Assembly: GCA_027451705.1 (NCBI GenBank)
Contig: DAIDIT010000190.1
Coordinates: 1 to 32,139, forward strand
Length of the DNA stretch: 32,139 nt
Reading direction: 5' to 3'
From: Pseudomonadota bacterium
Lineage (GTDB): Bacteria; Myxococcota; Myxococcia; Myxococcales; JAKAPL01
Shown here: piece after piece, positions 1 through 6,928 of the stretch
Layout of the letters: every line of letters starts with the position of its first letter
How positions within the stretch are numbered: the first letter of the stretch is position 1
Made by a program: the position numbers and the translations under genes
The notes under the pieces: model-generated
Seen by the model: the letters and a program-made list of their open reading frames with translations, nothing else
Database searches by the model: none
Told to the model about the DNA's origin: nothing

Positions 1-930
1 TACCCGGGATCGCGAGCCGCGTACCCGAGGCACCGAGCCTCGTACCCAGGGTCGGGAGCTTCGTCCCCGAGAAAGTCCGCGGCGTACCCAGAGAAGCGCG
101 CGGCGTACCCGAGAAAAGTCGCGGCAGACCCGACGGCGCGAGCGGCGTACCCACGCTCCCGAGCCTCGTACCCGCGTTCGCAAGCCCGAGACCCGCAATC
201 GCGAGCCTCGTACCCGAGAAAGCCCGCGGCGTACCCGAAGAAGCGTGCGGCGTACCCGACCCGACGTTCGGCATACCCCGCCATCTCGGCCTCATTCCCC
301 GCCTTGCGAGGCACGGGAGCACGGTGCCGAGCCTCGTCCCCGTGGTCCCGAGCGACGTACCCGGCCTCGTGAGCGGCGTACCCGCGCTTGTCAGCGACAG
401 ACCCGGCCTTGTCGGCGGCGTACCCAGCCTACCGAGCCTCGGGAGCAAGCTCCCGAGCCTCGTCCCCACGGTACAAAGCGACGGACCCAGGCCAACGAGG
501 CTGGTCCCCGCGCTTCCGAGCCTCGTACCTGCCCTTGTCAGCGACGTACCCCGCCATCCCAAGGCGGGAAGCCGCCCTCCGAGGCTCGTTCCCGCGGGTC
601 CGAGCCTCGGGACTTCGGACCCAAGGCTCGGAAGCCCGCTCCCGAGCGTCGTACCCGCGCCACCGTTCGACGTCCCCGCCCTTCCGAGCGTCGTCCCCCG
701 CCTTCCGAGCCTCGCCCCCGCGGGTCCGAGCCTCGGCACCTCGGACCCAAGGCTCGGAAGCCCGCTCCCGAGCGTCGTCCCCGCCCTTGCCAGCGCCGTC
801 CCCCGCCTTCCCAAGGCGGGAAACCGCCATCCGAGCCTCGTCCCTGCGCTCGTGCTCGACGTTCCTGGCCTTCCAAGCGAGGGCACCCTGGTCCCGAGCG
901 ACACCACCACGATCCCCTGCGACGTCCCCG
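1..930. repeat. Array of ~45 degenerate 21-bp tandem units
   Basis: The motif TACCCG (or TCCCCG, GACCCG) recurs at 1, 22, 43, 64, 85, 106, 127, 148, 169, 190, 211, 232, 253, 274, 295, 337, 358 and so on to about 925, always on the same 21-bp phase; the few poor units (316, 442, 568, 610, 631, 883) still keep phase. Each unit ends in a GAGCCTC, GCGGC or GCGAC variant. A larger block is duplicated at 601-654 and 727-780 (126 bp apart, 6 units), and another at 552-583 and 804-835 (252 bp, 12 units). The array continues beyond the left edge. Because 21 is a multiple of 3, long frames stay open on both strands, so open frames alone do not prove coding. 21 bp is also two helical turns. Confidence 0.9.
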
Positions 931-1102: not shown

Positions 1103-1267
1103 TCAGGTGGTCACGCGGCGGCGGTTCAGGAACGAGACGAGGGCGAGGACGAGGAAGACGACGAAGAGGATCTTGGCGATGCTGGCCGCGCCGGCGGCGA
1201 TGCCGGTGAAGCCGAAGATCGCCGCGACGATCGCGATGACGAAGAAGACCGCAGTCCAGTAGAGCAT
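1103..1267 (-). CDS. DUF1328 small membrane protein (YtjA-like)
   Basis: This 54-residue protein begins [17 protein letters not shown] and continues through a glycine/alanine-rich turn into a second hydrophobic helix ending in NRRRVTT. That order (MLYW start, first helix, GFTGIA turn, AKILF, second helix) is typical of the DUF1328 family, small two-helix inner-membrane proteins of unknown function that are usually 50-60 residues long. The ATG at 1267 is preceded on the minus strand by a GAGGGGGGA purine run suited to ribosome binding. A longer frame extends upstream to 1726 but is low-complexity and unlikely to be translated. No operon partner is visible. Confidence 0.85.
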
Positions 1268-1820: not shown

Positions 1821-3857
1821 TCAGGAGCGGAGCGTTCGGCGGCGACGGAGCGCCGCGAGCAGCGCGAGGGCCGCGAAGAGCGCGTCGCCGCCGCCGGCCG
1901 TGCTGCAGCCTCCGCTCTTTTCGCCCGGCGCGGGCACGGCACCGCCGGACGCGCTGCCTGCGTCGGACGTGGTCGTGCCGGCGTCGTAGGGCGGAGCGAC
2001 GCACGCACTCTCGACGCACACGTCGCCCGTGGCGCAGTCGGCGTCCGACGCGCACGACGAGCGGCAGCCCGTGACGCCGCAGGCGTACGGCGCGCAGGTC
2101 GTGGTCGCGCCGCTCCGGCAGGAGCCCTGGCCGTCGCACGTCGAGGCCGCGGTGGCAACGCCGGAAGCGCACGCCGCGTCCGCGCACGTCGTCGTCGCGC
2201 CCGGGAACGCGCAGGCGTCGCGAGCGGTGCCGTCGCACGCGCCCGCGCACGTTCCGCTGCCGCCGCACGGCGCGCGTCCGCCGCGCGGCGCGCCCGAAAC
2301 CGCGACGCACGTGCCTTTGCTGCCCGGCTCCGCGCACGCCTCGCACTCGCCGCCGCACGCGGAGTCGCAGCAGACGCCGTCGACGCAGTGGCCGCTCGCG
2401 CACTGCGCGTCGGCGGCGCAGGCGGTCGCGGCGGCGAGCTTCGCGACGCACACGCCGGACGCGCAGAAGTCGCTCGACGCGCAGTCGGCGTCGCGCGCGC
2501 ACGTGCCGAGGCACACGTCGCCGCCGCACACGTACGGCCTGCACGCGATCGTCTGCGCGGCCGGGCACGCGCCTCCGCTGCAGTTCGCGGCGAGCGTGGC
2601 GACGCCGCTCCCGGCGTCACAACTCGCGGCGCGGCACGCGCTCGTCGGGTACGTGCACGCGTCCGTGGTCGTGCCGTCGCACGCGCCCGCGCACGCCGAG
2701 CCGTCGCTCGCGCACGCGGTCCGACTCCCGTGCGGCGCGCCGACGACCGCCGTGCACGTGCCGAGGTGAGCCGGCAGGTCGCAGGCTTCGCACTGGCCGG
2801 TGCACGCCGAGTCGCAGCAGTGGCCGTCCACGCAGTGCGCGCTCTGGCAATCGGCGGACTGCGCGCACGCGGCGCCCTGCGGACCGAGCTCGCACGTCCC
2901 CGCGTAGCACTTCGCGCCGGCCGCACAGTCGCCGTCCGACGTGCACGACGTCTCGCACGCGCCGTTCGCGCACACGAAGAGGCCGCACAACGTCGCGGCC
3001 GCGGGCGCGGGGCAGCCCGCGGACACCCCGTCGCAAGAGCTCGCCGGCTGCGCGCCGCCCGCGGTGCACGCGGCCGCGCTGCACATCGTCCCGCTCGCCT
3101 TCGGCGTGTAGGTGCAGCCGCTCGCGGGATCGCAGGCGCCGGTCTGGCACGCGCCGGGTGGCGCGCAGGTGATCGCGGTGCCCGCGCAGGTGCCCGCGGT
3201 GCACGTGTCGTTCGTCGTGCACGCGTTGCCGTCGTCGCAGGCCGTGCCCGAGAGCGCGGTGCAGACGCCGTCGGCCGTCGCTCCGCCCGCCACGCTGCAC
3301 GCCTGACAGGGGCCCGCGCTACCGCCGTTGTACGCTTGGCCGCACGCCGAGTTGCAGCAGATGCCGCCGACGCACGAGAGCGTGCCCGCGCAGTCGCTCG
3401 CGGTGATGCACGACCCTCCCTGGTTGTCCGCCACCGCGATGGCGGTCAGGTTGAGCTGGAGCGTGTCCAGCTCCTGGAGTTGGAGCGTGGCGAGATACTG
3501 GTTTCCGGTCAAGGCGTCGGGGAGCCGCCAGATGATGGAGTACGGCTCGGGGACGCCGGCCTGGTTCTCGAGAGGCCCGGCCGAAATGTAGCCGGTCCCC
3601 GTGGTCCCGCTGAGGAAGTAGTAGTTGAACCCGTCGTTGATGTCCGGCTGGCCGTTCGGGAAGTTCGTGCTGACGTCGATCTGCGCGCCATTCCGGAACT
3701 GGCCGACGGGCACGTAGACGTAGCGGCTTAGTTGGGCGCGCGCGACACCGGGCGCCGCCACCAGCGCGACGAACGCGAGCGTTGCAGCGAGACGGCGTGG
3801 CGCGGAGGCGCGGACACCGGGGGCGATCCGCACGAGGGAAGAGAATCGAGTTTTCAT
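1821..3857 (-). CDS. Secreted Cys-rich repeat protein with MYXO-CTERM-like anchor
   Basis: The product is 678 residues. It starts with a basic stretch and hydrophobic helix ending GVARA, a likely signal peptide cleaved before QLSRYVYV. Next comes a domain of about 140 residues without cysteines (QFRNGAQIDVSTNFPNG) that I do not recognise. The rest is Cys-, Gly- and Ala-rich, with units such as HCVDGxCCDSACxGxCEAC occurring in at least two long modules of about 120 residues, plus SDxDCxxGxxC units. The C-terminus (SGGCSTAGGG, hydrophobic helix, RRRR) resembles the MYXO-CTERM sorting signal of surface proteins in Myxococcota. I chose the ATG at 3857 because it gives the signal peptide; an in-frame extension to 4070 lacks sense. 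Function is unknown; surface or adhesive roles are guesses. Confidence 0.85.
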   Translation of the reverse strand: MKTRFSSLVRIAPGVRASAPRRLAATLAFVALVAAPGVARAQLSRYVYVPVGQFRNGAQIDVSTNFPNGQPDINDGFNYYFLSGTTGTGYISAGPLENQAGVPEPYSIIWRLPDALTGNQYLATLQLQELDTLQLNLTAIAVADNQGGSCITASDCAGTLSCVGGICCNSACGQAYNGGSAGPCQACSVAGGATADGVCTALSGTACDDGNACTTNDTCTAGTCAGTAITCAPPGACQTGACDPASGCTYTPKASGTMCSAAACTAGGAQPASSCDGVSAGCPAPAAATLCGLFVCANGACETSCTSDGDCAAGAKCYAGTCELGPQGAACAQSADCQSAHCVDGHCCDSACTGQCEACDLPAHLGTCTAVVGAPHGSRTACASDGSACAGACDGTTTDACTYPTSACRAASCDAGSGVATLAANCSGGACPAAQTIACRPYVCGGDVCLGTCARDADCASSDFCASGVCVAKLAAATACAADAQCASGHCVDGVCCDSACGGECEACAEPGSKGTCVAVSGAPRGGRAPCGGSGTCAGACDGTARDACAFPGATTTCADAACASGVATAASTCDGQGSCRSGATTTCAPYACGVTGCRSSCASDADCATGDVCVESACVAPPYDAGTTTSDAGSASGGAVPAPGEKSGGCSTAGGGDALFAALALLAALRRRRTLRS

Positions 3858-3865
3858 CGTGCAGA

Positions 3866-3893
3866 GTCTTACCGAGCCCCGGTCGACCGTCAA
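3866..3893 (-). promoter_or_regulatory. Candidate sigma70 promoter of the Cys-rich gene
   Basis: On the minus strand TTGACG (3888-3893), a 16-bp spacer and TAAGAC (3866-3871) precede the ATG at 3857 by 8 nt. Transcription would begin at or next to the start codon. No Shine-Dalgarno sequence is visible, which is consistent with a leaderless mRNA. Confidence 0.45.
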
Positions 3894-4159
3894 GCTGAGG
3901 AAGGACGGAGAGCGAACGGGGTTGGCAATCATGAAGCGGAGCTCGAGCCCAAAATGAGCGACCGTACGGGCAGTGTCCGCTCCCTCGTAATGCCCGAGCG
4001 ACCCACGCACGCCGCGACGGCGGTCTCGGAGCCCGTTTTTCGACGAGCCGTTCAGCTCCTGAACGCACACGGCGGCCGTGACGTGCGCGGAGAAGTTTCG
4101 AACTTGTCGAGGAGGAGGGGGAAAGCCGGGTGGCCCACCCCGTCCCGAACTCGATTGCG

Positions 4160-5546: not shown

Positions 5547-6928
5547 GCGGCGGCGGCCGCGGTCGACGCGCCGTCGCTCTGCCGCTCGAAGTGGCGGGCG
5601 ACGCCGCGGAAGATCAGCGCGACCACGAGCATGACGCCGGTCTGGATGGCGAAGTAGGTGCCGGGCGACAGCTTGCCCCAGAGCTTGACGAACGGCGCGC
5701 CGATGCAGAAGTCGCCGATGAAGACCGTCACGAGGAAGGCCGAGGTGATGAAAGACTTCGTGTTGGGCGCCGCCTGCTCGAACGCGAACTTGAGGCCGAT
5801 GGACGAGACGCCGAGCTCCGCGTAGCTGATGACGAGCGTCGCGACGACTTCGAGCCAGGCGGTCACCCGGCCGGTGGTCCCGACCGCGTAGCCGGCGAGC
5901 GCCATGATCGCCATGCAGGCGATCACGACGACGAACCCCTCCATCATCCGCCGGGTGTCGGGGATCTCGGCGCCGCCGTTCTTCTTGCGGGCCCGCTCCC
6001 AGCGCCAGTTGAAGACGGGCGTCAGGAAGAGGATCGCGAACGGGTTGATCGCCTGGATCTGCTCCGCCGAGATGCTCCAGCGCCAGCTCCCGAAGTGGAG
6101 GAGGGTCAGGTCCATGTGGTCGCGGGCGAAGAAGATCCAGGTGGTCGCGGACTGGTCGTAGACGAACCAGAAGAAGACGATGAGGCCGAAGACGGGCGCG
6201 ACGCGCTTGAGGCTGTTCCACTCGGCCGCCCGCTGCTCCTCGGTCTTCTTCTCGCGGTTCACCGTCTCCACGACGTAGTGGCGCTTGCCGAGGGCGAAGA
6301 TCCCGAGCGCGACGGTCATCAGGGCGGCGGGGAGCAGGAACGTGACGAAGTAGGCGTGCGGCAGGGCGGCGTGGAACGCGGCGAGCTGCGCGGCGCTGGC
6401 CCCGGGGCCCGGCGGCGGGGCGAGGTAGTTGCGCAAGGCCGGCACGGCGATGGTCGTGATCGCCGACCCGATGTTGATCGCGGCGTAGTAGTAGGTGAAC
6501 GCCTCGGCGATCAGGTGTTCCTTCCCCTGCTTCTCGTAGATCATCCCCATCAGCGGCGAGCAGGAGGGCTTGATGGTGCCGGAGCCGACCGCGAGGAGGA
6601 ACAGCGAGACGTAGAGCGCGAACGTCGTCTGGATGCTGCCGAGGAGGAGCTGCCCGAAGACGTACGGGAAGAAGAAGTAGACGATCGTCTTGTAGCGGCC
6701 CAGGAAGCGATCGGCGATCCAGCCTCCCGGCAGGCAGAAGAGGTAGCAGGCCGCCATGAAGATCTCGCCGATGACCGACGCGTTGGCCTGCGAGAAGCGG
6801 AGGCGGTCGACGATGTAGACCGCGAGGACCGTCCGCATCCCGTAGTACGACGCGCGCTCGGCGAGCTCGCCGAAGAAGACGAACCAGAAGCCCTTCGGGT
6901 GCTCCCTCAGACGTGCGATCGCGCCCAT
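5543..6928 (-). CDS. POT/PTR family proton-dependent oligopeptide transporter
   Basis: The product has 461 residues and about 12 hydrophobic segments. The signature of proton-coupled peptide transporters is near the N-terminus: GELAERASYYGMR at residues 20-32, carrying the ExxER motif and YYG. The loop after helix 2 reads GGWIADRFLGRYKTI, as in this family. POT proteins import di- and tripeptides with protons across the inner membrane; substrate cannot be read from the sequence. A likely AAAGG ribosome site lies about 10 nt upstream of the ATG. It is transcribed divergently from the Fur gene and ends over the DUF1015 stop. Confidence 0.9.
   Translation of the reverse strand: MGAIARLREHPKGFWFVFFGELAERASYYGMRTVLAVYIVDRLRFSQANASVIGEIFMAACYLFCLPGGWIADRFLGRYKTIVYFFFPYVFGQLLLGSIQTTFALYVSLFLLAVGSGTIKPSCSPLMGMIYEKQGKEHLIAEAFTYYYAAINIGSAITTIAVPALRNYLAPPPGPGASAAQLAAFHAALPHAYFVTFLLPAALMTVALGIFALGKRHYVVETVNREKKTEEQRAAEWNSLKRVAPVFGLIVFFWFVYDQSATTWIFFARDHMDLTLLHFGSWRWSISAEQIQAINPFAILFLTPVFNWRWERARKKNGGAEIPDTRRMMEGFVVVIACMAIMALAGYAVGTTGRVTAWLEVVATLVISYAELGVSSIGLKFAFEQAAPNTKSFITSAFLVTVFIGDFCIGAPFVKLWGKLSPGTYFAIQTGVMLVVALIFRGVARHFERQSDGASTAAAAA

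Follow-up and report, generated by a model that had tools for sequence, protein, structure and literature searches.

The window analysed here, a stretch of 32,139 nucleotides, opens within a tandem array of 45 in-phase 21-bp units (positions 1 to 945, no strand assigned) with a plus-strand consensus close to TACCCGCGCTTCCGAGCCTCG. When the sequence is laid out at 21 bases per line, the units remain in register from base 1 to about 945, with zero phase shifts. Indeed, identity at lag 21 across the array reaches 0.60, compared with 0.305 +/- 0.014 in shuffled sequences (z 21), and is maintained at lags 42 (0.53) and 63 (0.54), while off-phase lags give about 0.29. The strict 21-bp phase of some 45 units, held despite sequence drift as claimed in the original prediction, is therefore real, but the array is longer than the 925 bp first assigned to it. 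The last 141 bases of the adjoining contig C231 are an exact copy of window 1-141, showing that the contigs break within the array, and two extra units continue it on the minus strand of that contig (G000:C231:142-183). The full array thus extends from approximately -41 to 945 and comprises about 47 units, two of them upstream of the window on C231. A possible last, decayed unit is present at the right edge (946 to 966, no strand assigned; weak model match at 907-963).

On average, 9.7 of the 21 bases differ between units, which therefore do not derive from one recent expansion; this contradicts the reservation, made at the outset, that the phase might be the chance product of such an event. 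The best-kept unit columns are CCC (3-5), GC (16-17) and CG (20-21). A 126-bp higher-order repeat, with six units per superunit, is located at 505 to 848 (no strand assigned; copies 60-79% identical), and this superrepeat is discernible through most of the array. Strong quasi-palindromes, for instance CTCGGGAGCAAGCTCCCGAG, are found mid-array (430 to 640, no strand assigned; folding z -5.2); strong folding is confined to this middle part, both ends of the array folding poorly.

On the right, the array is flanked by a gene for a small DUF1328 membrane protein (1103 to 1267, minus strand), whose 3' end faces the array. On the left, a plus-strand reading frame on C231 apparently stops some 110 bases short of window base 1; this frame was read from the sequence, the gene caller having not called it. 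Since the array is flanked by these two elements, it seems to lie between convergent genes.

Related arrays and retention of the phase

The array on contig C64 is a paralogue of the window array, with 85% identity; their first 655 bases align ungapped, with 59 substitutions. A third related array, on C131, carries 44 in-phase units. A one-base slip is observed near the right end of the C64 array, and the phase in the window/C64/C131 family is strict but not absolute. A plus-strand gene, which ends at about 4237, and a minus-strand gene enclose the C64 array; these flanks are not related to the ones around the window array. The preference for convergent genes suggested by these two loci was not retained, as 52 arrays of this period show no orientation bias. 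Contigs break inside arrays both at window 1-141 (141-bp exact overlap with G000:C231:1-141) and at the end of C131 (31837), so that the assembly is fragmented by the arrays and probably lacks further copies of them. A young sister array of 14.6 copies of a 21-bp unit, with 89% matches and no indels, was also found in this genome (L083:3376-3681, on G000:C150).

Within 131 in-phase units, about 190-381 substitutions are accompanied by at most one phase shift, the lower figure counting half of the minimum spanning tree and the upper figure all of it. In a mutation accumulation study of Myxococcus xanthus, 12 non-repeat indels and 39 indels in all were recorded per 428 substitutions (PMC11069108). 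At these ratios, 3-34 phase shifts would be expected; P lies between 0.19, a non-significant deficit obtained with the lowest indel ratio, and values below 1e-6. Since non-repeat indels in M. xanthus amount to only about 3% of substitutions (PMC11069108), the deficit is suggestive of constraint rather than decisive and depends on the indel ratio used. Moreover, the count of phase shifts is biased because arrays are recognised by their phase. The original argument that neutral repeats normally gain and lose bases was thus overstated in view of this low ratio, yet its core, that strict phase together with drifting sequence needs an explanation, is upheld.

Relatives carry arrays with periods of 41, 43, 83 and 85 bp, which indicates that one-base indels do arise and can then be propagated. 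For instance, 15.6 copies of 43 bp at L088:2765-3432 (G004:C137) read as a pair of 21 + 22 bp; this is a propagated single-base insertion that breaks the helical phase along the array.

Coding status of the array

The 59 substitutions between the window and C64 arrays are split 22/19/18 over the three codon positions. When 15 comparisons within the window/C64/C131 family were pooled (614 differences), no synonymous excess was observed in any of the six frames (z -0.8 to 1.2). As a positive control, 633 differences from 20 arrays located within predicted genes gave z 4.6 in the proper frame, which demonstrates that the codon test has power. The codon-position G+C of the array (0.61/0.79/0.76) is not gene-like either, third positions of genes here reaching about 0.9 or more. 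Stops are present in several array frames, while two plus-strand frames are stop-free in all three related arrays, which we take as chance in G+C-rich repeats. Searches of the array against Pfam, and against Rfam and tRNA models, gave no match. Collectively, codon tests and composition show that the array is not protein-coding, and the seven-codon protein units initially considered had to be abandoned.

The 21-bp period across genomes

To place the array in its genomic context, seven genomes were picked without regard to repeats and sampled over 164-627 kb each; for G004 and part of the array's own genome, a draft MAG of 69.7% completeness in 267 contigs, some sampled contigs were known from earlier matches and different stretches were taken. 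Arrays were detected by TRF and divided into coding and non-coding by our own simple codon-usage gene caller, a crude split, and periods of 21, 22, 41-43 or 83-85 bp were counted as one period class. In five genomes, this class accounts for 33 of 53 non-coding arrays but only 4 of 45 coding ones (Fisher p 3e-8). Its share of non-coding arrays is 11/20 in the own genome (window excluded), 12/16 in G001, 2/3 in G002, 7/9 in G004 and 1/5 in G010, and none of the six non-coding arrays found in G054 and G022 (same order, 200 kb each) has such a period. Several short non-coding arrays with a 9-bp unit around CGATCGG/CGGACCGAT were seen in G010 (L207, L213, L215). In one of the sampled genomes, an array occurs about every 26 kb. 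The non-coding arrays peak genome-wide at 21, 42+/-1 and 84+/-1 bp, in agreement with the earlier suggestion that 21 bp represents two turns of DNA.

Arrays of this length belong to several families with unrelated units, 12 such families being counted in the own genome and, in two relatives, 6 and 8. Since unit sequences are unrelated between families, length is the property in common: the window array shares its period, but not its sequence, with other non-coding arrays of its genome and of relatives. When the unit was sought elsewhere, R1, a sequence model of four units, matched the own genome 56 times, recovering the window, C64, C131 and C150 arrays along with weaker ones. On the other hand, neither BLAST nor the unit model matched the array in a genome of the same genus, which carries 21-bp arrays of its own, and matches of the model in other relatives were few or weak, except in G004. 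A survey of named species with the DUF1015 protein provided 3 loci only.

The second part of the two-turn suggestion, a protein site presented on one face of the DNA, fared less well. Sharing of 5- or 6-mers between families does not exceed the level of random intergenic DNA (few families, consensus sequences only) and, in the absence of a shared motif, a sequence-specific protein is unsupported. A motif that the window array would share with the G004 arrays was not retained either: the unit model matches the latter at E down to 2.9e-6, but these matches come from two or three array families and may be due to chance. Two hairpin candidates were also discarded: a hairpin preceding arrays (GAAGCGAAGCG) has only 2 of its 5 copies near arrays, and hairpins as a hallmark of 21-bp arrays are equally frequent in non-coding arrays of other periods.

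Class assignment and possible basis of the period

The founding paper on repeats of constant size and variable sequence, a class known from many bacteria, is reportedly that of Subirana and Messeguer in J Bacteriol 2020. Bacterial tandem repeats of this class keep one size, 20-21 or 52 nt, while varying in sequence, and are species-specific and mostly non-coding (Subirana and Messeguer, PMC8161180). The window array very probably belongs to the 20-21 nt type as a non-coding member, since it displays the defining features tested: its 47 tandem units, well above four, are all of 21 bp, with lag-21 identity of 0.60 against about 0.30 at neighbouring lags; it is non-coding; several families of the same length but of different sequence coexist in each of three genomes (12, 6 and 8); and its sequence is species-specific, as judged from the lack of BLAST or unit-model matches in the same-genus genome. 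Like the described arrays, it has no known function. It differs from them in its uncultured myxobacterial host, in its six-unit higher-order structure and paralogous copies, and in being much longer (47 units) and more degenerate than the Bacillus arrays, for which the typical 4-10 units is a figure for the 52-nt type (PMC8161180). A short sequence typical of a species' arrays, described for the class but not defining it, was not found here, at low power. Thus, with the window array, a class that is known but unexplained gains a long and degenerate member, a very diverged case in which phase outlives sequence.

Among other known systems, the 52-nt repeats of Bacillus and Firmicutes (PMC8161180) likewise combine constant length with unconserved sequence, and in our reading both lengths are near whole helical turns (5 and 2), but their length is different and was not seen in this analysis. 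The intergenic tandem repeats of archaeal Borgs (PMC12660748, PMC9879509) are also non-coding, with units novel to each region; unlike the present arrays, they are not tied to one repeat length, as described, and reside on extrachromosomal elements. For bacterial arrays, conservation of unit length without conservation of sequence has had no accepted explanation so far. The present data show the class to be common in non-coding DNA of a myxobacterial clade, and the controlled codon test separates it from coding repeats.

Subirana and Messeguer noted that 20-21 nt corresponds to two helical turns, and proposed either binding of nucleoid proteins that need a constant repeat size or transcription into small RNA (PMC8161180). 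Tandem copying of units and of six-unit blocks is evident in the array. We propose that units would arise by tandem duplication and would then drift by point mutation, and that arrays may persist at 21 bp because neighbouring units need a spacing of about two helical turns. The most likely reason would be a DNA-binding protein of the nucleoid type, bound to adjacent units along the same helical face. Class membership, duplication with drift and a retained two-turn spacing provide, as a whole, the best explanation of the array, with a probability of roughly 0.55; that the spacing is kept specifically for a DNA-binding protein is a more tentative element. The retained spacing is favoured by the fact that phase outlives sequence and that coding arrays, in which seven codons would be tolerable, have no 21-bp peak, which is what a period relevant to DNA would predict. 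It is disfavoured by the G004 arrays of 41, 43 and 22 bp, in which helical phase is lost along the array, by the lack of orientation bias of array positions relative to genes and by the lack of a short motif common to array families. A further step, which we consider doubtful, would be to regard the 21-bp period as a mechanical code that is under selection and independent of sequence, with a nucleoid protein or process specific to the clade requiring tandem segments two turns apart. If so, any sequence would serve provided that the spacing is maintained, and the window array would be old and degenerate but still phased.

The strongest competitor to the retained spacing is a purely mutational origin, in which some enzyme or replication feature of the clade duplicates DNA in steps of about two turns, the arrays being functionless and small indels rare. 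This is a possibility of some weight, if below even odds: unit sequences are unrelated, species-specific and devoid of a common motif, array positions are unbiased, turnover is rapid (the R1 family is missing from the same-genus genome), non-repeat indels are scarce in M. xanthus, as cited above, and periods such as 41 and 43 resemble propagated single-base indels. Nevertheless, a pure duplication bias should give coding arrays a 21-bp peak too, whereas only 4 of 45 fall in the class, and the window, C64 and C131 arrays are strongly diverged yet almost without phase shifts. Recognition of the two-turn spacing by a DNA-binding protein and duplication in two-turn steps are hypotheses of about the same probability. 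Since array-rich and apparently array-poor genomes occur within one order, this order offers a setting in which to seek the responsible gene.

That the array is transcribed into a non-coding RNA, structured or sponge-like, with repeats that bind a protein or RNA, appears improbable. Folding of window 430-640 is far stronger than in shuffled sequences (z -5.2) and the 52-nt type of the class is transcribed in Bacillus coagulans (PMC8625621), but the two ends of the array fold poorly, strong folding is as frequent in non-coding arrays of other periods, a search for promoter- or terminator-like sites gave none, and Rfam gave no match. A CRISPR-like array, or an iteron or partition (parS-type) array, is very unlikely in spite of the regular spacing. 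The units drift throughout and a constant repeat with unique spacers is absent, as the original prediction had already recognised for CRISPR. Iteron arrays and parS clusters rely on a conserved protein-binding sequence; iterons of 17-22 bp are familiar from plasmids, and a regular spacing of about 21 bp similarly puts sites on one DNA face. In contrast, the arrays here are numerous, spread over many contigs and unrelated in sequence between families, with only the period in common. Finally, it is hardly conceivable that the array belongs to a gene for a heptad-repeat protein (seven residues per unit), since neither the equivalence of 21 bases to seven codons nor the two stop-free frames outweighs the codon test, the base composition, the lack of a domain match and the sister arrays of related genomes with periods that are not multiples of 3.

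Two other elements of the window deserve mention. A dispersed, REP-like perfect palindrome, CCCTCCCCCGCNNNGCGGGGGAGGG, is located at 1372-1396; it has 45 copies in its own genome at up to 2 mismatches (0 for the reversed control) and forms a 44-bp tandem array on C231 at about 6706-6863. Further on, a 749-aa reading frame (1821 to 4070, minus strand) encodes a cysteine-rich repeat protein with only weak DUF7107/Dickkopf-like matches in Pfam and none in NCBIfam, ending in a Gly/Cys, hydrophobic and Arg-rich tail that resembles a MYXO-CTERM sorting signal.
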